64,000 nt of DNA from Arenimonas fontis (GCF_008386465.1 NZ_VUOD01000002.1:248001-312000), one strand, 5' to 3'; shown: positions 15,960-33,686, numbered from the stretch's first letter. Made by a program: numbers and translations. The notes: generated from the sequence alone by a model not told the origin.

Positions 15960-16925
15960 ATGTCCACGGAAATCGCCGCCCCCGCCGAACGCTCGCATCG
16001 CTTCGACGCCTTTGCCGACTGGCTGTTCCGCAACATCGTCACGATCGCCGGCTGGTTCGTGTTGATCGCCCTGGCCGCCGCCGCCTTCTCCATGTACTGG
16101 GGCGGGCGCGAGGCCTTCGAACAGTTCGGCCTGGGCTTCCTGTGGTCGCAGGACTGGGACCCGGTGCGCGAGCAATACGGCGCCCTGGTGCCGATCTACG
16201 GCACCGTCGTCTCGACCCTGATCGCGATGATCATCGCCGTGCCGGTCAGCTTCGGCATCGCCCTGTTCCTGACCGAGGTGGCGCCGACCTGGATCCGGCA
16301 GCCGCTCGGATCGGCCATCGAGCTGCTGGCCGGCATTCCCTCCATCATCTACGGCATGTGGGGCCTGTTCGTGCTGGCGCCGTTCCTGGCGGAGCACGTC
16401 TACCCGCGCATTGACGAAAACCTCGGCAGCTGGCCGATCATAGGCCCGCTGTTCTCCGGCCCGCCCCTGGGCATCGGCATGCTGACCGCCGGCATCGTGC
16501 TGGCGATCATGATCATTCCATTCATCTCCTCGGTCATGCGCGACGTGTTCATGACCGTACCCAACCGGCTGAAGGAATCCGCTTACGCTCTGGGCAGCAC
16601 CACCACGGAGGTGGTTTGGGACATCGTCCTGCCCTACACCCGCTCGGCGGTGATCGGCGGCATCTTCCTGGGCATGGGCCGGGCCCTGGGCGAGACCATG
16701 GCGGTCACCTTCGTGCTGGGCAACTCCCACCACATCAATGCCTCCTTGCTGATGCCCGGCAACTCCATCGCCGCCAGCATCGCCAACGAATTCGCCGAGG
16801 CCACGACGCCGATGTACCAGTCGGCCCTGCTGGCCCTTGGCTTCGTGCTGTTCATCGTCACCTTCATCGTGCTGGCCATCGCCAAATTGATGCTGATGCA
16901 GCTCAGGAAGCGGGAGGGCAACTGA
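15960..16925 (+). CDS. pstC: phosphate ABC transporter permease PstC
   Basis: Inner-membrane permease subunit of the Pst transporter, 321 residues with about six to seven membrane helices. The first helix is near residues 22-44. The binding-protein-dependent transport signature (EAA loop) appears around KESAYALGSTTTEVVWDIVLP, followed by GIFLGMGRALGET. The best ribosome site, AAGGAG, is about 16 bases before the ATG, which is rather far. The stop codon overlaps the pstA start by one base (TGATG). Confidence 0.95.
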   Translation: MSTEIAAPAERSHRFDAFADWLFRNIVTIAGWFVLIALAAAAFSMYWGGREAFEQFGLGFLWSQDWDPVREQYGALVPIYGTVVSTLIAMIIAVPVSFGIALFLTEVAPTWIRQPLGSAIELLAGIPSIIYGMWGLFVLAPFLAEHVYPRIDENLGSWPIIGPLFSGPPLGIGMLTAGIVLAIMIIPFISSVMRDVFMTVPNRLKESAYALGSTTTEVVWDIVLPYTRSAVIGGIFLGMGRALGETMAVTFVLGNSHHINASLLMPGNSIAASIANEFAEATTPMYQSALLALGFVLFIVTFIVLAIAKLMLMQLRKREGN

Positions 16926-17788
16926 TGAACAGCGTTTCCGAACGCCTGTATCTGCGCCGGCGCCTGGTCAACGCCGTCTCCCTGCTGCTGTCCGCTGCGG
17001 CAGCGGTGTTCGGGTTGTTCTGGCTGATCTGGATACTGTGGACGACGATCAGCAAGGGCGTGGACGCGATGAGCCTGCAGCTGTTCACCGAAATGACGCC
17101 GCCGCCAGGAACCGACACCGGCGGCCTGAAGAACGCCATCGTCGGCAGCGTCATGCTTAGCGGCCTGGCCATCCTGCTTGGCGCTCCGGTCGGCATCGCC
17201 GCTGGCACCTTCCTGGCCGAATTCGCCCGTGACAGCAAACTGGGCAACGCGATCCGGTTCGTCAACGACATCCTGCTGTCGGCGCCGTCCATCGTGCTGG
17301 GCCTGTTCGTCTACGCGGTGATCGTGCGGCCGTCCGGCAGCTTCTCCGGTTATGCCGGCGCCGTGGCCATGGCTTTCATCGTGCTGCCGGTAGTGGTGCG
17401 CACCACCGACGAAATGCTGAAGCTGGTGCCCAGCCAGATGCGTGAAGCGGCGCTATCCCTGGGCATACCGCAGTGGAAGGTCACCACCCAGGTGCTGTAC
17501 CGGGCGGCGCTGCCGGGCATCATCACCGGCGTCCTGCTTGCCCTGGCCCGCATCGCCGGCGAGACCGCGCCGCTGCTGTTCACCGCCTTCAACAACCAGT
17601 ACTGGAATACCGACATGTCCGGCGCCATGCCCAACCTGCCGGTGACCATCTTCCAGTTCGCGATGAGCCCCTTCGAATACTGGAACCAGCTGGCCTGGGC
17701 CGGCGCTTTCCTGATCACGGTGTTCGTGCTGATCGTCAGCCTGGGCGCCCGCTTCCTCCTGCTGCGCAAGAAGATGAACCATGACTGA
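16925..17788 (+). CDS. pstA: phosphate ABC transporter permease PstA
   Basis: Second permease subunit of the Pst transporter, 287 residues with about six helices. The EAA-type loop lies around [20 protein letters not shown], followed by [21 protein letters not shown], which is characteristic of PstA. Translation should couple to pstC (TGATG) and to pstB (8-base overlap). Confidence 0.95.
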
Positions 17789-18599
17789 CGTCTCCATCTC
17801 CATCGCCACGTCCGTACCCCAGGCCAGCCAGGCCGCAGTGCCCAGCCGGGTGAAGCTGGCGGCGCGCAACCTGGCCTTTCACTATGGCGACTTCGCCGCG
17901 CTCAGGGACATCAATCTGGAGGTGCCGGAGAAGCGGGTGACCGCCCTGATCGGCCCTTCGGGCTGCGGCAAGTCCACCCTGCTGCGCATCTTCAACCGGA
18001 TCTATTCGATCTACCCGGGCCAGCGTGCCAGCGGCGAGGTGCTGCTGGACGGCGAGAACGTGCTCGACCCGAAGTACCCGCTCAACAAGCTACGCAGCAA
18101 GATCGGCATGGTGTTCCAGAAGCCGGTGCCGTTCCCGATGTCCATCTACGACAACATCGCCTACGGCATCGGCCACTACGAGAAGCTGTCGCGCCAGCGC
18201 ATGGACGAGCGGGTCGAGGAGGCGCTGCGCCAGGCGGCGCTATGGGACGAGGTCAAGGACAAGCTCAGGCAGAGCGCGCTTGGCCTCTCCGGCGGCCAGC
18301 AGCAGCGCCTGTGCATCGCCCGTGCCGTGGCCCTGCGCCCGGAGGTGATCCTGTTCGACGAGCCTACTTCTGCCCTGGACCCGATCGCCACCGGCAAGAT
18401 CGAACAGCTGATCGCCGAGCTCAAGCAGCAGTTCACCATCCTGATCGTCACCCACAACATGCAGCAGGCGGCCCGCTGCTCCGATTTCACCGCCTTCATG
18501 TACCTGGGCGAGCTGGTCGAGCACGGCCCCACCGCCACCATCTTCACCAAGCCCTCGAAACAGCAGACCGAGGACTACATCACCGGCCGCTTCGGCTGA
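17781..18599 (+). CDS. pstB: phosphate ABC transporter ATP-binding protein PstB
   Basis: ATPase of the Pst transporter, 272 residues. Walker [10 protein letters not shown] is at residues 58-66, the signature is [14 protein letters not shown], Walker B is [13 protein letters not shown], and the switch His follows in [11 protein letters not shown] 25-residue N-terminal extension precedes the ABC domain, as in many proteobacterial PstB proteins. It overlaps pstA by 8 bases and is followed by phoU after 11 bases. Confidence 0.97.
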
Positions 18600-18610
18600 G
18601 GTTCCCCGCC

Positions 18611-19306
18611 ATGACCGAGCACATCGTCAAGAGTTTCGACACCGAACTGCAGCGCCTCGACGGCGAGATCCAGCGCATGGGCGAGATCGCCGTGGCCCAG
18701 CTGGAGGCGGCCATGGACGTGTTGCAGCGCCGCGACAGCCAGGCCGCGCAGCGGGTGGTCGCCAACGACGACGCCATCGACGCCCTGGAGCACGAGGTCG
18801 GCCACGACGTGCTGCAATTGCTGGCGCTGCGCCAGCCCATGGCACGCGACCTGCGCGAGGTTTACGCCGCCTTGCGCATCTCCTCGGACATCGAGCGGAT
18901 CGGCGATTACGCCGCCAACGTGGCCAAGCGCAGCATGGTGCTGAACCAGATGCCGGTGGTGCCGGCAGGGCGCGGCCTGCCGGCGCTGGCCAGGCTGGCC
19001 GGCAGCCTGGTCTCGGAGGCGCTGGAAGCCTACCGCCTGCGCGACGCCGACCGGGCCATGGCCGTGCGCGGCCGCGACGCCGAGCTGGACGCCGAATACA
19101 CCGGCCTGTTCCGCGAGCTGCTGACCTACATGGCCGAGGATCCGCGCCAGATCACCGCCTGCACCCACCTGTTGTTCATCGCCAAGAACATCGAGCGGAT
19201 CGGCGACCATGCCACCAACATCGCCGAGAACACCTGGTTCCTGGTGCACGGCGAGCCGCCGGCGACCGAGCGCGAGAAGCGCGACCGCACTTCCGAGCAG
19301 GCCTGA
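18611..19306 (+). CDS. phoU: phosphate signalling protein PhoU
   Basis: Negative regulator linking the Pst transporter to the PhoR/PhoB two-component system, 231 residues. It contains two three-helix PhoU repeats with the metal-binding E(x)xxDxxx-type helices: DIERIGDYAANVA (near residue 95) and NIERIGDHATNIAE (near residue 195). It is the last gene of pstSCAB-phoU. phoB and phoR are not in the window. The 153 bases after it show no clear terminator. Confidence 0.95.
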   Translation: MTEHIVKSFDTELQRLDGEIQRMGEIAVAQLEAAMDVLQRRDSQAAQRVVANDDAIDALEHEVGHDVLQLLALRQPMARDLREVYAALRISSDIERIGDYAANVAKRSMVLNQMPVVPAGRGLPALARLAGSLVSEALEAYRLRDADRAMAVRGRDAELDAEYTGLFRELLTYMAEDPRQITACTHLLFIAKNIERIGDHATNIAENTWFLVHGEPPATEREKRDRTSEQA

Positions 19307-25813: not shown

Positions 25814-26977
25814 TCATACGGCCGCGATCGCCGCACCCACCGCCAGCATCCCGAACACGACCCAGAGCGGATTCAGCCGGGCCTGCAGCACGGCCAGGCC
25901 CGCCAGCACCAGCGCCGCGTCCGACCACCCGCGCACGCCCTCCGACAGCACCGGGTCGACGAAGGCAGCGGCCAGCAAGCCGACGACGGCGGCGTTGATA
26001 CCGGCCACCGCCGCCGCCACGCCAATGCAGCGGCCGGCGCGCGACCACCAGGGCAGCACCGCCGCCATCAACAGCAAGCCCGGCAGGAAGATCGCCGCCA
26101 GGGCGATGCCCGCGTTCGCCCAGGCCGGCGCGCCGGTAGGCACCAGTGCCCCGAGGTAGGCCGAGAGGGTGAACATCGGCCCCGGTACTGCCTGGGCGGC
26201 GCCGTACCCGGCCAGGAAACGCTCATGCGACAACCAGCCGGGCTCCACTACCGAGGCTTCCAGCAGCGGCAACACCACATGGCCGCCACCGAAGACCAGG
26301 CTGCCGGCACCGTAGAACGCCGCCGCCAGCCGGGCCGGGCTGGGCTCGCCGGCGTCCGGCCACTGCGAGGCCACCAGGCCCAGTACGAACAGCGACAGCA
26401 GGGGCCAGGCCAGGCCGCCCCGGTAACGCGGTTCCAGGGCCGCCAAGAGCGGCGCGGGGCCGTTCCGACAGCACAGCCAGCCAGCCGCGGCGCCACCCGC
26501 GATCACCGCGAGCTGCGCCCAGGCACTGCCGGTCAGCAACACGCCGGCCATGGCCAGCACCGCCAAGCACCGTCGTCGCCCGTCCGGCGCCAGGCTCCGG
26601 GCCATGCCGGCAAGGGCGTGGCCCACGACGACGACGGCCACCAGTTTCAGGCCATGCACCAGGGCCGGCTGCGCCATCAGGCCTGGCGCCCACGCCGCCA
26701 GGGCGAACATCAGCAAGGCCGAAGGCAGGGTGAAACCGGCGAAGGCCGCCAGGCCGCCCCGCCAGCCCGCCCGGACCAGGCCGATGGCGAAGCCCAGTTG
26801 GCTGCTGGCCGGCCCCGGCAGCATCTGCGCCGCCGCCAGCAACTGCGCGAATTCCTCCTCCCGCAGCCAGCGACGGCGCCGCACGAAGGCCTCGTGGAAA
26901 TAGCCCACGTGGGCCACCGGCCCGCCGAACGAACTCAGGCCCAGGCGGAGGAAAACCAGGAAGACCTCGGTGGCCAT
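25814..26977 (-). CDS. chrA: chromate transporter ChrA
   Basis: Long-chain CHR-family chromate efflux transporter, 387 residues with two homologous CHR domains. The first half carries LGLSSFGGPVAHVGYFHEAF and QMLPGPASSQLGF. The second carries GSLVFGGGHVVLPLLE and AAQAVPGPMFTLSAYLG. These paired FGGP/FGGG and PGP motifs define the family. Proteins of this group export chromate driven by the membrane potential. It is divergent from the arsR-gapdh-arsJ operon with 76 bases between starts, so ArsR might influence both directions (inference). The 3' end comes close to the convergent spermidine synthase-like gene. Confidence 0.93.
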   Translation of the reverse strand: MATEVFLVFLRLGLSSFGGPVAHVGYFHEAFVRRRRWLREEEFAQLLAAAQMLPGPASSQLGFAIGLVRAGWRGGLAAFAGFTLPSALLMFALAAWAPGLMAQPALVHGLKLVAVVVVGHALAGMARSLAPDGRRRCLAVLAMAGVLLTGSAWAQLAVIAGGAAAGWLCCRNGPAPLLAALEPRYRGGLAWPLLSLFVLGLVASQWPDAGEPSPARLAAAFYGAGSLVFGGGHVVLPLLEASVVEPGWLSHERFLAGYGAAQAVPGPMFTLSAYLGALVPTGAPAWANAGIALAAIFLPGLLLMAAVLPWWSRAGRCIGVAAAVAGINAAVVGLLAAAFVDPVLSEGVRGWSDAALVLAGLAVLQARLNPLWVVFGMLAVGAAIAAV

Positions 26978-27053: not shown

Positions 27054-27416
27054 ATGGATACGAATGCCGCCCTCGCCGTCCTGACCGCCCTTGCCCAGCC
27101 GCACCGGCTGGCCATCTTCCGCTGGCTGGTGCAGCGGGGGCCGGACGGCGCCTTCGCAGGGGAGATCGCCGGGGCGCTGGGGCTGGCGGCCACCACCCAG
27201 TCCTTCCATCTCAAGGCCCTGGCCGGTGCCGGCCTGCTGTCCGCCGAGCCGCAGGGCCGGCACATCCGCTATCGCGCCGACCTGGACGCCGTGCGCGGTC
27301 TGGTGGATTACCTGACGGAAAACTGTTGCGGCGGCGATCCTTCCCGCTGCGAACCGCCACTGCGGCCCGGCAGGGTCGCCGGCCGCCGATTCCCCCATCC
27401 CGGAACCACCCCATGA
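27054..27416 (+). CDS. arsR: ArsR/SmtB-family metalloregulator
   Basis: Winged-helix repressor of 120 residues. The N-terminal helices start with [15 protein letters not shown], the recognition helix region is [19 protein letters not shown], and the wing is [11 protein letters not shown]-terminal CC pair followed by a further Cys (ENCCGG...SRC) is a likely As(III) site, as in the ArsR type with C-terminal Cys ligands. It is the first gene of arsR-gapdh-arsJ and overlaps gapdh by 4 bases. It should derepress the operon on binding trivalent arsenic. GATTC repeats before the start (27033-27045) may be part of the operator. Confidence 0.88.
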
Positions 27417-28414
27417 CCCTGAAGATAGGCATCAACGGATTCGGCCGCATCGGCCGCCTGGCGCTGCGCGCCGCTTTCGACTGGCCCGACCTGCGCTTCG
27501 CGCACGTCAACGACCCGGCCGGCGACGCCGCCACCCTCGCCCACCTGCTCAACTTCGACTCCGTGCATGGCCGCTGGGCGCACCAGGCCGCGGCCGAGGG
27601 CGATGCCATCGTCGTCGCCGGACAGCGCATCCCGGTCACCCGCAACAAGGGCATCGCCGAGACCGACTGGTCCGGCTGCGATCTGGTCATCGAGGCCAGC
27701 GGCAAGATGAAAACCAGCGCCTTGCTGCAGGCCTACCTGGACCAGGGCGTCAGGCGCGTGGTGGTGACCGCGCCGGTGAAGGAGCCGGGCGTGCTGAACG
27801 TGGTGATGGGCGTGAACGACCACCTGTTCGACCCGGCCGGGCACCGCATCGTCACCGCCGCCAGCTGCACCACCAATTGCCTGGCGCCGATCGTCAAGGT
27901 CATTCACGAGGGCCTCGGCGTCCGCCACGGCAGCATCACCACCGTGCACGACCTGACCAACAGCCAGTCCATCCTCGACCAGCCGCACAAGGACCTGCGT
28001 CGCGCCCGCGCCTGCGGGATGAGCCTGATCCCCACCAGCACCGGCTCCGCCACCGCCATCACCGAGATATTCCCGGAGCTGAAGGGCCGGCTCAACGGCC
28101 ACGCCGTGCGCGTGCCGCTGGCCAATGCCTCGCTCACCGACGCCGTGTTCGAGGTGAGGCGCGAGACGACGGTCGAGGAGGTGAACGCCCTGTTCAAGGC
28201 CGCCGCCGAGGGCCCGCTCGCCGGCATCCTGGGTTTCGAGACCCGGCCGCTGGTGTCGATCGACTACCGCAGCGACCCGCGCAGCAGCATCGTGGACGGG
28301 TCCTTCACCATGGTGGTCGCCGGCACCCAGGTGAAGGTGTTCGCCTGGTACGACAACGAATGGGCCTACGCCAACCGCACCGTCGAACTGGCCAGGCGGG
28401 TGGGCCGGGCGTGA
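27413..28414 (+). CDS. gapdh: glyceraldehyde-3-phosphate dehydrogenase of the arsenate pathway
   Basis: GAPDH of 333 residues: NAD-binding [11 protein letters not shown] at the N terminus, active-site [10 protein letters not shown] (catalytic Cys), and [11 protein letters not shown] near the end. Its position between arsR and arsJ, with 4-base overlaps on both sides, marks it as the ars-linked enzyme. In the known pathway such a GAPDH uses arsenate in place of phosphate to make unstable 1-arseno-3-phosphoglycerate, which ArsJ then exports. It could also act in glycolysis; a separate housekeeping gap gene would be expected elsewhere. The function rests on context plus the conserved pairing. 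Confidence 0.92.
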
Positions 28415-29625
28415 GCGGCGGCCGCGCCAGCCTGGGCCAGTACCTGGTCATCACCGGCAATTACTGGGCCTTCACCCTCACCGACGGCGCTTTGCGCATG
28501 CTGGTGGTGCTGCATTTCCACCAGCTGGGCTACAGCCCGCTGCAGGTGGCCATGCTGTTCCTGTTCTACGAAGTGTTCGGCGTGGTCACCAACCTGGTCG
28601 GTGGCTGGCTGGGCGCGCGCCTGGGCCTGAACCGGACCATGAACCTGGGCCTGCTGCTGCAGGTCGGCGCCCTGGCCATGCTGGCCGTGCCGGCGGCGAT
28701 GCTGACCGTGCCCTGGGTAATGGCGGCCCAGGCCCTGAGCGGCATTGCCAAGGACCTGAACAAGATGAGCGCCAAGGCCGGCGTCAAGCTGCTGCTGCCG
28801 CCGGGCGAGCAGGGCCGGCTGTATCGCTGGGTGGCGGCGCTGACCGGCTCCAAGAACGCGCTCAAAGGCATCGGCTTTTTCCTGGGCGGCCTGCTGCTTT
28901 CCCTGCTCGGTTTCGACGGGGCCGTGCTGGCGATGGCCGCGGCCCTGGGCCTGGTCTGGCTGGCCAGCCTGGGCCTGCTGCGACGCGACCTCGGCCGCTC
29001 CAGCGCGAAGCCGAAGTTCACCGAACTGCTGAGCAAGAGCCCGGCCATCAATCGGCTGTCGGCGGCACGGCTGTTCCTGTTCGCCGCCCGCGACGTCTGG
29101 TTCGTGGTGGCCCTGCCGGTCTATTTTTCGGCCAGCCTGGGCTGGAGCCATGCCGAGGTGGGCAGCGTCCTGGCCCTGTGGATCATCGGTTACGGCGCCG
29201 TGCAGGCAATGGCGCCGACGTTTACCGGCCGGGGCCGGCAACCGCCCGGCGCCGGTGCCGCCTTCGGCTGGGCCCTGGGCCTGGCCACCCTGACCGCCGG
29301 CCTGGCCTGGGCACTGTCGGCCGCCTGGCCGCCGGAAGCCGTGCTGATCGGTGGCCTGCTGGCCTTCGGCGCGGCATTCGCGGTCAATTCCGCCCTGCAC
29401 AGCTACCTGATCGTCAGCCACGCCAGGGAGGACGGGGTTTCCCTGGATGTCGGCTTCTACTACATGGCCAACGCGGGCGGCCGCCTGCTGGGCACGGTGC
29501 TGTCGGGCTGGGTGTTCCAGGTCGCCGGCCTGGCCGCCTGCCTGTGGATCTCGGCAGGCTTGCTGGCCGTTTCGGCCCTCGTGGCCCTGAGCCTGCCGGG
29601 ATCCGCGGCCCGTCCCGCGGGCTAA
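28411..29625 (+). CDS. arsJ: organoarsenical efflux MFS transporter ArsJ
   Basis: Major-facilitator permease of 404 residues with about 12 membrane helices. Highly characteristic ArsJ segments are visible: [40 protein letters not shown] and [20 protein letters not shown]. ArsJ exports 1-arseno-3-phosphoglycerate, which breaks down outside to arsenate, giving net arsenate efflux without reduction. A GTG start overlaps the gapdh stop (GTGA), so the two are translationally coupled. No arsC or arsB is present in the window. Confidence 0.93.
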
Positions 29626-29691
29626 ACGAAACCTGAATGGCATGCCCGGGCCCGCGCATCCTTCGTCCCGGGGCGGGCCACTTTCCTGGGG

Positions 29692-30264
29692 ATGACAGAC
29701 GGGACGGACCGGTCCATGCTCGAAACCCTGGAATATTCGCCGCTGCCGATGAACACGCTCGCCTGGGCCAGCGACATCGAAGCCGCCCGCGCCGGCGATC
29801 GCCTGGCGCTGGAGCGGGTGCTGGCGCGCTCACGTCAGGATCTGCGCCGCTACGCCGAGTTCCATTGCGTGGTCAACGACATCGAGGACGCGGTGCAGGA
29901 ATCCCTGTTCACCGCTTCCCGGCACCTGATGGACCTGCGGCATGTCGAGTGTTTTGCCTCCTGGCTGTTCCGCATCGTCAAGCGCGAGTGCAACCGCATG
30001 AAGCGTGGCCTGCGCCGCCTGCGTCACGAGCCCATCACGGAGGACATCGCAGAGTGCCCGGCAAGCTCGAGGCCGGCGCTGGTCTGCGACCTGGCCATCG
30101 TGCTGGAGTCGCTGCCGCCGCATTACCGGGAAATCCTGCTGCTGCGCGACCTCGAGGGCCTGTCCCTGGCCGAACTCGGCGAGCGACTGGGCCTGAGCGA
30201 GCAGGCCACCAAGGCCCGCCTGCACCGGGCCCGGGCCCTGGCCCGCCAGCGGCTGCTGGCCTGA
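29692..30264 (+). CDS. ECF-type RNA polymerase sigma factor
   Basis: Extracytoplasmic-function sigma factor of up to 190 residues with only regions 2 and 4. Region 2 includes DIEDAVQESLFTASRHL and the -10 recognition helix around FASWLFRIVKRECNRMKR. Region 4 includes LPPHYREILLLRDLEGLSLAELG and the helix-turn-helix EQATKARLHRARALARQRL. It lies 46 bases before the EGKCG-repeat gene and 66 bases after arsJ. Its placement suggests it transcribes the copper-peptide cluster and perhaps itself. No anti-sigma gene is adjacent. The start is uncertain: ATGs at 29692, 29716 and 29749 are possible, and none has a strong ribosome site. Confidence 0.85.
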   Translation: MTDGTDRSMLETLEYSPLPMNTLAWASDIEAARAGDRLALERVLARSRQDLRRYAEFHCVVNDIEDAVQESLFTASRHLMDLRHVECFASWLFRIVKRECNRMKRGLRRLRHEPITEDIAECPASSRPALVCDLAIVLESLPPHYREILLLRDLEGLSLAELGERLGLSEQATKARLHRARALARQRLLA

Positions 30265-30310
30265 ACCATTCCGCGGGATGACCCGCAACCACCGGAGAAG
30301 GGAGCGAACC

Positions 30311-30712
30311 ATGTCCAAGAAGAACCTCAAGCCCGTTGTCCTGGCCGCCGGCGCCCTGATGCTGAGCGGCACGGTGCTGGCCGGCTCGGCCTTCGCCATG
30401 AGCCCGCTGGCCCAGGGCTACATGCTGTCCGCCAGCGATGCCAAGGCAGAGGAAGGCAAGTGCGGCGAAGGCAAGTGCGGCGCCGACAAGGCCGAGGAAG
30501 GCAAGTGTGGCGAAGGCAAATGCGGCGCCGACAAGGCCGGACACGAAGGCAAGTGTGGCGAAGGCAAGTGCGGCGCCGACAAGGCCGGGCACGAAGGCAA
30601 GTGCGGCGAAGGCAAGTGCGGCGCCGACAAGGCCGGGCACGAAGGCAAGTGTGGCGAAGGCAAGTGCGGCGCCGACAAGGCCGAGGAAGGCAAGTGCGGC
30701 GGGCTGGCCTGA
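30311..30712 (+). CDS. hvfA: HvfA-type precursor of a copper-binding modified peptide, EGKCG repeats
   Basis: Precursor peptide of 133 residues, a RiPP of the HvfA group. Residues 1-29 form a Sec signal peptide ending in SAFA. After a short linker, residues 47-133 are almost pure repeat: five units of 15-16 residues, each with two EGKCG motifs, and a final half unit, giving eleven EGKCG motifs and eleven Cys. In nontypeable Haemophilus influenzae the HvfB/HvfC enzyme converts Cys in EGKCG motifs to oxazolone/thioamide groups that bind copper. Here hvfB and hvfC follow directly. The peptide probably buffers copper in the periplasm or outside; that role is inferred. Confidence 0.92.
30449..30709 (+). 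repeat. coding tandem repeat of 45-48 bases in hvfA
   Basis: Two 45-base units (30449-30493, 30494-30538), three 48-base units (30539-30586, 30587-30634, 30635-30682) and a partial unit (30683-30709) encode the EGKCG pairs. The units differ at few, mainly silent, positions (such as tgc/tgt and aag/aaa), which suggests recent expansion and possible copy-number variation between strains. Confidence 0.9.
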
Positions 30713-30719
30713 GCGGGCG

Positions 30720-31580
30720 ATGAGCCGAGGATCCGCCTTGCCGGCGACCTCCGCCGGCCTCGGGCTGCGGCGCGCCCTGCTGGGCGCGCTGCGGTCCGCG
30801 GCGCCGGGTGACTTCGACTTCCTCGAATGCGCACCGGAAAACTGGATCGGCGTCGGCGGCCGTTTCGGCGAGGCCCTGGACGAGCTGTCCAGGCGCCACC
30901 CGCTGGTCTGCCACGGCCTGTCGCTGTCCCTTGGTGGGGTGGAGCCTTTCGACCAGACCTTCCTGTTCAAGTTGCGCCGCTTCCTTGAGCGGCACCGGGT
31001 GCCGGTCTACAGCGAACACCTGTCCTACTGCAGCGACGACGGCCAGCTGTACGACCTGATGCCTATTCCCTTCACCGATGAAGCCGTCCGCCACGTCGCC
31101 GGCCGCATCCGCGAGGTGCAGGACATGCTGGGCCGGCGGATCGCGGTGGAAAACGTCAGTTACTACGCGGCGCCCTACCAGGCCATGGCCGAGATCGACT
31201 TCGTCAATGCCGTCCTGGCCGAGGCCGATTGCGAGCTGCTGCTGGACGTCAACAACGTCTACGTCAACGCCATCAACCATCGCTACGACCCGCTGGACTT
31301 CCTGGCCCGGCTTCCGGGCGAGCGCATCGCCTACTATCACGTCGCCGGCCATTACGATGAAGCCGACGACCTGAAGGTGGACACCCACGGCGCGGCGGTG
31401 AAGGCCGACGTCTGGCAGTTGCTGGACCTGGCCTGCGAACGGTTCGGGCCGCGTCCGGCACTGTTGGAACGCGACTTCAATTTCCCTCCCTACGCGGAGC
31501 TGGTGGCCGAGGTGGCGAAAATGCGCGAGGTGCTGGCCAGGCATGCGGCGCCGGCGGGGCAGCGGCATGTCGGCGCCTGA
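30720..31580 (+). CDS. hvfB: MNIO (DUF692) multinuclear iron peptide-modifying enzyme, HvfB
   Basis: Multinuclear non-heme iron-dependent oxidative enzyme (MNIO, formerly DUF692, MbnB family), 286 residues with a TIM-barrel fold. Likely iron ligands are visible: Glu in ECAPENWI, His in [12 protein letters not shown], His in YSEHLSYC, Glu-Asn in AVENVSYY, the DVNNVYVNA block, His in [10 protein letters not shown], and Glu in LLERDFNFP. Next to an EGKCG precursor and an HvfC gene, it should oxidise the precursor Cys to thioamide/oxazolone. It begins 7 bases after hvfA and overlaps hvfC by 14 bases. Confidence 0.93.
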
Positions 31581-32334
31581 GCGCCTGCGCGAGCAGGAGT
31601 TCCGACTGGCGGCCCACATCCGCGACCCGGCGGGGCAACCGCCGCCACCCGGCATCGATGAGCGGCGTCTTGCCATCTATCGCGATCTGTTCTTCAACAG
31701 CCTGCTGGGCCTGCTGTCGGGCAATTTCCCGGTGCTCAAGCGCCTGCTGGGCGACCCCGCCTGGCCGGACCTGGTGCGCGACTTCTACCGCGAGTTCCGC
31801 TGCGCCACGCCGCTGTTCCCGGAATTGCCGCGGGAGTTCATCCAGTACCTGCAGCAGCGCGACGGCGGCAGCCGCGGCGATCCGCCCTGGCTGCCCGAAC
31901 TGGCGCATTACGAATGGGTGGAACTGGCCCTGGATCTGGACGAATCCGATCCGTCCGCCGTGCCGCACGATCCAAGCGGCGATCTACTCGCCGGCGTGCC
32001 CGTGCTTTCGCCGGTAGCCTGGCCGCTGGCTTACGCCTGGCCGGTGCATCGGCTGTCGCCGGACTTCCTGCCGGCCGGGCCGCCGGCCCGCCCCAGTTTC
32101 CTTCTGGTGCTGCGCGACGCCGGCCTCAGGGTCCGCTTCCACGAGATCACCGCCCTTACCTTCCGGCTGCTGCAACGCCTGGACGAATGTCCGGATCTCG
32201 ATGGCGCCACCCAGCTGCGCGCTCTGGCCGCCGAGGCCGGTGCGGCCGATACGGACGCTTTCGTGCGCGATGGCCTGGATATCCTCGAACGACTGCGGGA
32301 CCAGGGCGCGATCCTGGGCACCCGCCCCGACTGA
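31567..32334 (+). CDS. hvfC: DUF2063 partner protein of the MNIO enzyme, HvfC
   Basis: Protein of 255 residues of the DUF2063 family. The N-terminal helical domain contains [30 protein letters not shown] and FIQYL, followed by [15 protein letters not shown]-terminal domain has a strand-rich segment and LRDQGAIL. In characterised MNIO systems this protein forms a complex with HvfB (as MbnC does with MbnB) and recognises the precursor. The 14-base overlap with hvfB supports one-to-one production. Confidence 0.9.
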
Positions 32335-32349
32335 CGCGGAGGACGAACG

Positions 32350-33003
32350 ATGCCGAACAACTGGGCAGATCGCTGGCTGGCGCTGAGCTCCCGCCTGGAC
32401 GGCGTGGGCAACTGGCTGGCGCCGCTGGGCCTGCGCCTGATCCTGGCCTGGGAGTTCTGGGAAGCCGGGCGCGAGAAGCTGCGCGGCGAGAACTGGTTCG
32501 GCCAGATCCAGGACAAGTTCCCGTTCCCGTTCGACCAGGTGCCGCCCGGCCTGAGCTGGAGCCTGGCCACCTGGACCGAGCTGGTCGCCGCCGTGGCGCT
32601 GTTGCTGGGTCTGGGCACGCGCCTGGCCGCCTTCGCCCTGTTGGTGCTGACCGCCGTGGCCACTGCGTCGGTGCACTGGCCGGCCGACTGGTCCAGCCTG
32701 GCCGAGCTCTGGCAGGGCTATGCCATCACCGACCGCGGCCATGGCAACTTCAAGTTGCCGCTGCTGTTCGCGCTGATGCTGCTGCCGCTGCTGTTCAAGG
32801 GACCCGGGCGACTGAGCCTGGATGCGCTGCTGGCGCGCCACGCCGGTCTCGAGGTGCGAGCGCCGGTGTGCGACCTTTCCGCCTGGGCCCTGGGCCTGGC
32901 CGTGACCGGCCTGCCCCTGGCCCTGCTGATGCCTGCCTTCGGTCTGTCCCTGCTGGGCCTGGCACTGCTGCTTGGACTGCTGGATCGCCTGCTGTTGCGT
33001 TAG
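32350..33003 (+). CDS. DoxX-family membrane protein of the HvfA cluster
   Basis: Inner-membrane protein of 217 residues of the DoxX family, the type often found with MNIO/HvfA clusters (called HvfX by some annotators). The N-terminal [17 protein letters not shown] is the DoxX signature. Hydrophobic segments lie near residues 25-45, 75-95, 130-150 and 175-215. A large periplasmic loop holds [17 protein letters not shown]. It starts 15 bases after hvfC with GGAGG before the ATG, so it belongs to the operon. A role in copper handling or in redox during peptide maturation is possible but unproven. Confidence 0.85.
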
Positions 33004-33041: not shown

Positions 33042-33686
33042 ATGGAATCGCCAGCGCCGCCACGCATGGCCGACCGTTTCCGCGGCTTCCTGCCGGTGGT
33101 GGTGGATGTGGAAACGGGCGGCTTCGACTGCAATCGCCACGCCCTGCTGGAAATCGCCGCCGCACCGATCGAACTGGACGCGGCCGGCGACTTCGTGCCG
33201 GGTGAAGTCGTCAGCGCTCATGTGGAACCCTTCCCGGGTGCGGAAATCGATCCGCGCTCGCTGGAAATCACCGGCATCCGCCTCGACACCGCCCTGCGCG
33301 GCGCGCTGCCGGAACGCGCGGCCCTGGACCACATATTCGCGCCGGTGCGGGCGGCGGTACGCCGGCACGGATGCCAGCGCGCCATCCTGGTCGGACACAA
33401 CGCCCACTTCGACCTGGGCTTCCTGAACGCGGCGGTGGCGCGGGTGGGGCACAAGCGCAACCCCTTCCACCCCTTCAGCACCTTCGACACCGTCACCCTG
33501 GCCGGCATGGCCTACGGCCAGACGGTGCTCAGCCGGGCGGTGCAGGCCGCCGGCCTGGCCTGGGACGGCGGGCAGGCGCACTCGGCGGTATACGACGTGG
33601 AGCGCACCGCCGAGCTGTTCTGCGCCATTGTCAACCGCTGGCGACGCTGCGCCGGACAGGATCAGGGATCCAGGTTCCAGGTATAG
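33042..33686 (+). CDS. rnt: ribonuclease T
   Basis: DEDDh 3'-5' exonuclease of 214 residues that trims tRNA and other stable RNA 3' ends. Exo I motif [11 protein letters not shown], Exo [13 protein letters not shown] and Exo [17 protein letters not shown] supply the metal-binding D-E-D-D and the His. The [16 protein letters not shown] segment is RNase T-like. The start could also be the ATG at 33066. The 3' end overlaps the convergent DUF1036 gene by 25 bases. It follows the DoxX gene by 38 bases but is a housekeeping gene and need not be in the same operon. Confidence 0.93.

Follow-up and report, generated by a model that had tools for sequence, protein, structure and literature searches.

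The five genes at positions 29692-33003 of the window, the 64,000-nt stretch of DNA that was analysed, were read as an HvfABCX-type captophorin operon with a dedicated ECF sigma factor, in which HvfA would be a modified, copper-binding peptide and the sigma gene would lie under the box of a PhoP-like regulator. We put the probability of this reading at about 0.72. The cluster is a real and typical member of an operon kind that has already been described, and what is new is its regulatory anatomy. The features are as follows.

25814-26977, minus strand: gene for a chromate transporter (PF02417), near the ars operon
27054-29625, plus strand: arsR, ArsJ-associated GAPDH gene and arsJ, together a complete operon for arsenate efflux, immediately before the sigma gene
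29623-29638, plus strand: direct repeat TAAAC-GAAACC-TGAAT (TRAAY-N6-TRAAY, 11-bp period), putative OmpR-family regulator box
29675-29690, plus strand: core element, [AC]CTCTTGG in relatives and CCACTTTCCTGGGG in the window, a probable component of the core promoter
29692-30264, plus strand: ECF sigma factor gene (Pfam Sigma70_r2 and Sigma70_r4_2)
30311-30712, plus strand: hvfA, precursor with a Sec-type signal sequence and 11 EGKCG motifs (NF050137, 48-bp tandem repeat)
30720-31580, plus strand: hvfB, MNIO (DUF692) peptide maturase (NF003818, PF05114, 3BWW)
31567-32334, plus strand: hvfC, DUF2063 and RRE-type partner (NF050145, PF09836, PF22106 NGO1945_C, 3DEE match)
32350-33003, plus strand: hvfX, DoxX-type membrane protein (NF050144, PF07681)
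33042-33683, plus strand: rnt, RNase T (TIGR01298, 324 bits), 38 bp downstream of the cluster

The five plus-strand genes are separated by 46, 7, -14 and 15 bp, and the sequence-only reading, which had placed a sigma factor, an EGKCG precursor, an MNIO, a DUF2063 and a DoxX protein head to tail with these gaps, agreed exactly with the coordinates. We infer that the genes are co-transcribed. The Pfam assignments of the operon's proteins were beyond chance (PF05114, 341 bits; PF09836, 81; PF22106, 94; PF07681, 76; Sigma70_r4_2, 55). Four of the five genes were named by NCBIfam above its curated cut-offs, namely the HvfA repeat domain (NF050137, 146 bits against 19.5, in six stretches of the precursor), HvfB (NF003818, 424 against 360), HvfC (NF050145, 293 against 142) and HvfX (NF050144, 147 against 80), so that the earlier assignment to HvfABC with a DoxX protein was right. 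By sequence, the four core genes fall within the definition of the HvfABCX (oxazolin/captophorin) group. The precursor scored 63.8 bits with the full-length HvfA equivalog NF050188, below the 95-bit cut-off, which fits its longer repeat region. All 11 of its Cys residues lie inside EGKCG motifs, the underlying DNA repeat has a 48-bp unit in 5.3 copies, and the Sec-type signal sequence was judged by eye. The hvfB gene is the sole MNIO gene in the 2.63-Mb genome; the nearest solved structure to its product is 3BWW (E 6e-73), and the His/Asp/Glu motifs were conserved in the alignment. The closest named relatives belong to Arenimonas (Lysobacteraceae), with identities of 66-75% for the sigma factor and 79-83% for hvfB. 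A search for structured RNA in the region gave none. It was also observed that the hvfA genes of six sigma-linked loci (L073, L077-L081) carry an EF-hand-like DTNKDGKIS segment within the EGKCG repeat region. The rnt gene directly follows the cluster in 20 of 20 sigma-hvf loci; it is possibly transcribed by read-through, and its function is presumed to be unrelated.

For the product, an oxazolone/thioamide modification had been proposed at first. This matches the original assignment of oxazolin but is outdated, since two groups have reassigned that structure to 5-thiooxazole (PMC13097082, PMC13419390), which gonophorin and fontiphorin also carry (PMC13097082, PMC13419390). In closely related EGKCG pathways, 5-thiooxazole is made and Cu is bound (PMC13097082). 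By analogy, the Cys residues of the 11 EGKCG motifs of HvfA are probably oxidised to 5-thiooxazoles in the cytoplasm by HvfB with its partner HvfC, and the peptide then probably binds copper. It would leave through the Sec pathway, so that copper would be bound in the periplasm or outside. HvfX would be an accessory membrane protein that is dispensed with in part of the lineage; it was undetected in 6 of the 20 named-collection loci described below (L076-L081). The earlier statement that few such clusters have been characterised holds, although thousands have been catalogued (PMC13097082, PMC12452194): there are >24,000 MNIO-PME1 loci (PMC13097082), about 2,000 EGKCG precursors (PMC12452194), and MNIO-PME1 clusters in about half of the Pseudomonadota reference genomes (PMC13097082).

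By aligning the regions before the sigma genes, the direct repeat TRAAY-N6-TRAAY was discovered; in the window it overlaps the stop codon of arsJ. Of 36 sigma-hvf loci, which are related and hence not independent, 24 had the exact repeat and 31 had it with at most one mismatch, in a tally made by hand once duplicate contigs had been removed. The remaining 5 of the 36 had no recognisable box. On the sigma side, every box lay on the sense strand, with the codon for residue 29 of the sigma factor about 141-187 bp downstream of it; 183 kb of downstream sequence taken as background held no exact box and seven with one mismatch. It was absent at three sigma relatives without hvfB nearby. In sigma-less clusters the box was rare before hvfA (exact in 2 of 14, one genus), and it was rejected as a feature of those upstream regions. 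The core element follows the box at 38-40 or 46-49 nt in most loci, two spacing classes that differ by about one helical turn. No clear -10 hexamer could be placed at the sigma promoter.

The exact box was found in seven copies in the window's genome, compared with none for the reversed control. One copy precedes a two-gene unit. One of its genes encodes a small secreted protein that had no NCBIfam match and that we take to be PepSY-like; the other encodes a response regulator with PhoP as its top NCBIfam match (224.6 bits, below the cut-off of 336). We found the gene of this PhoP-like regulator in 59 of 60 genomes of the family, and the box upstream of the unit was found at 28 of 30 loci with at most one mismatch (20 exact), on the strand opposite to that at the sigma gene and 465-629 bp from the regulator gene. 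When a half-site matrix was made from the phoP boxes alone, most sigma boxes outscored almost all of the 364,586 background positions. The sequence feature of a PhoP regulon, a direct repeat with an 11-bp period common to the phoP-like promoter region, was thus found at the sigma gene. Boxes of Salmonella PhoP are likewise direct repeats with an 11-bp period (PMC3335776). Given the box at the phoP-like operon, the matrix scores and this Salmonella precedent, the PhoP-like regulator is the leading candidate for binding the putative box. In Stenotrophomonas no PhoP box was defined, and its consensus was called not clear by one group (PMC7559202), so that the label "PhoP box" derives solely from the place of the repeat before the phoP-like operon. 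A PhoP site in Xanthomonas, taken from a motif of another source (PMC9108719), is unlike TRAAY-N6-TRAAY and was set aside. A further exact box of this genome (L109:1501-1516) immediately precedes a gene whose product is a small secreted protein (MKKKSLISILIAMAMTLACSLTAAAAGNK...), in the same orientation as at the sigma gene, which makes this gene a possible further target.

Since 11-bp direct repeats are common to several OmpR-family regulators, the box might belong to another member of this family that also controls phoP, the operon itself being as described. The orientation of the box at the sigma gene, reversed relative to phoP, speaks for such a regulator and against PhoP. Reverse boxes in Salmonella are active only when 27, 37 or 48 nt separate them from the -10 hexamer (PMC3335776). 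The pstB-phoU genes seen by eye before the cluster in Lysobacter also make other two-component inputs plausible. Nevertheless, PhoP autoregulation usually explains a conserved box before phoP, and the near-universal regulator beside it matches PhoP best, albeit below cut-off. We regard binding by another regulator as rather unlikely.

Similarly unlikely, in our estimate, is a copper-inducible cluster, in which the sigma factor or an upstream regulator senses copper and the operon forms part of a copper response. The same genome has a copy of the box some 28 bp ahead of a copL-like gene, after which comes copA (L107:1501-1516); these names are presumed from Xanthomonas copLAB. Among 30 copA loci of the family, an exact copy of this box was limited to 4 that are 92-100% identical, so a family-wide copper regulon based on it was rejected. 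Apart from the family assignment, the copL box is the sole direct link to copper, a lead rather than support. Binding of Cu by close EGKCG products (PMC13097082) also favours copper induction, whereas related hvf operons under sigma control are hypochlorite-responsive (PMC7907618). The metal-resistance neighbourhood noted earlier does exist, but its genes handle the oxyanions arsenate and chromate and not copper, and their association with the cluster is not a conserved one. The window ORFs tested included no copper gene. Only Arenimonas and one further lineage (L081, with divergent orientation) have the ars operon beside the cluster, and the metal neighbours were consequently rejected as evidence for copper. 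The step from this neighbourhood to copper induction was weak, as the box suggests a PhoP-like regulator and no known copper regulator.

Other neighbours concern phosphate. The window has phoU and pst-type genes for permease and ATPase at 15960-19306 on the plus strand, and in four Lysobacter loci (L073, L074, L076, L085) pstB-phoU, identified by eye, lie just upstream of sig-hvf; porin-like genes occupy that place in L071 and L075. A phosphate-uptake neighbourhood may be ancestral to sig-hvf.

The union of the sigma factor with the cluster, which the sequence-only reading had also pointed out, was strongly supported by comparison within the family. An MNIO match was found in 77 of 99 Lysobacteraceae genomes and this sigma factor in 26. 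In 23 of these 26 the sigma gene lies directly upstream of the cluster of the HvfB gene (hvfA-hvfB) on the same strand, one of the 23 genes being broken by stop codons. Of the other three, one is oriented divergently to an MNIO gene of another class, the second is on a separate contig, and the third comes from a genome without an MNIO match. The order sig-hvfA-hvfB-hvfC-(hvfX)-rnt was kept at 20 of 20 loci of the named collection with a sigma identity of at least 54%. Strong sigma matches were few in the wider order; beyond members of the family there were two, both from other families and with no hvfB in their vicinity. No NCBIfam ECF equivalog reached its cut-off with this sigma factor. From these sequence comparisons, the sigma factor belongs to a Lysobacteraceae clade tied to the hvf cluster, a linkage that is new here. 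The sigma label required 10 changes on the hvfB tree, which implies repeated loss or gain. It is very improbable that the sigma factor is an independent passenger beside a constitutive or otherwise controlled hvfABCX, because this patchy distribution and the many sigma-less clusters of the same family are outweighed by the constant position and orientation in 23 of 26 genomes and by the Neisseria precedent of an ECF sigma factor with an hvf-type cluster (PMC2954202).

The start of the sigma gene is more likely ATG 29749 (171 aa) than ATG 29692 (190 aa), since homologues align from residue 19-29 onward and the codon equivalent to 29692 is out of frame in two close relatives. A canonical-looking ECF-type promoter, GGAACTT-N16-GGTCGTA, was observed upstream of hvfA in only one subgroup of four related loci (L069-L072), between the two genes and some 42 bp beyond the stop codon of the sigma gene. 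A general sigma-dependent promoter before hvfA was rejected, as it was convincing in these four loci only. As a sigma promoter elsewhere, GAAYC-N15..19-ACTCTTGG was rejected as well: it gave six matches in 60 genomes, one of them at the sigma gene, and the reversed control was comparable.

No recognisable anti-sigma gene accompanied the sigma factor. The interval between the sigma gene and hvfA is too short for one, and no ORF there or between the upstream gene and the sigma gene was anti-sigma-like. NrsF was absent from the genome in a search whose control recovered it in Caulobacter, the genome gave no zf-HC2 anti-sigma match, and the zinc anti-sigma motif HxxxCxxC was missing from the upstream ORFs listed for 10 of 12 loci. 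The genes upstream of the sigma gene vary by lineage (ars; by eye, PhoU/PstB, malate dehydrogenase and porins). The NrsF and zf-HC2 searches could have missed small peptide anti-sigmas such as HrsE and MseR. With no anti-sigma recognised, control is probably exerted at sigma synthesis and not by anti-sigma release.

In the preferred reading, that of a PhoP-like regulator acting on a cluster-bound sigma factor, the sigma gene would have its own promoter beneath the conserved box. The simplest reading is that the response regulator would bind the box and raise the sigma level, and the hvf genes would then be raised by read-through or from a sigma-dependent promoter. A wiring from the PhoP-like regulator to the ECF sigma gene and on to a copper-binding RiPP is likely. 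The complete relay, in which a response-regulator box, an ECF sigma factor without anti-sigma and a thiooxazole copper peptide from hvfABCX follow one another, is proposed tentatively, at slightly less than even odds. The inducing signals of MNIO-PME1 clusters are known in few cases, and a cluster-fixed sigma factor whose box is common to a phoP-like operon offers a concrete handle on such a signal. If true, the relay would place captophorins in the envelope or divalent-cation stress physiology of Lysobacteraceae and not in a copper-sensor regulon, and it would supply a usable candidate PhoP box for this family, where the consensus was called not clear (PMC7559202).

Among known systems, the bufferin Buf1 (DUF2282) operons, for example in Caulobacter, likewise combine MNIO, DUF2063, DoxX and ECF sigma genes (PMC12452194). 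Buf1 operons are described there as metal-stress operons, and sigma-F has been connected with metals (PMC3511200). The precursor here has EGKCG motifs instead of DUF2282, with no Pfam match for the hvfA product, and the MNIO scored 267 bits with BufB, under the cut-off of 310, as against 424 bits with HvfB, over its cut-off. Membership in the Buf1/SigF-NrsF group was rejected on the missing DUF2282, the BufB score and a genome without NrsF. In the part of the landscape paper that is available, sigma factor and NrsF are reported for Buf1 clusters and are unmentioned for EGKCG clusters (PMC12452194).

HvfABCX of nontypeable Haemophilus influenzae consists of the same four protein families by NCBIfam, with six EGKCG Cys in HvfA compared with 11 here. 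There, RpoE2, which has the anti-sigma HrsE, controls the hvf-type operon after hypochlorite and is encoded near msrAB, away from the cluster (PMC7907618), whereas here the sigma gene heads the operon. The fontiphorin cluster (fon) of Fontimonas thermophila likewise has EGKCG repeats, MNIO and PME1; its 5-thiooxazoles and Cu binding were established by experiment (PMC13097082), while those here are predicted from genes. In Neisseria, the adjacent genes NGO1944-1948 (gonophorin) encode an ECF sigma factor, DUF2063 and DUF692 proteins, a periplasmic precursor and a DoxX protein (PMC2954202), and are possibly cotranscribed (PMC2954202). Meningococcal SigE is under the dedicated anti-sigma MseR (PMC2893595, PMC3240639), whereas none was recognised here. 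By gene content, NGO1944-1948 is a precedent for a sigma factor within a cluster of this kind (PMC2954202), a combination that was known already.
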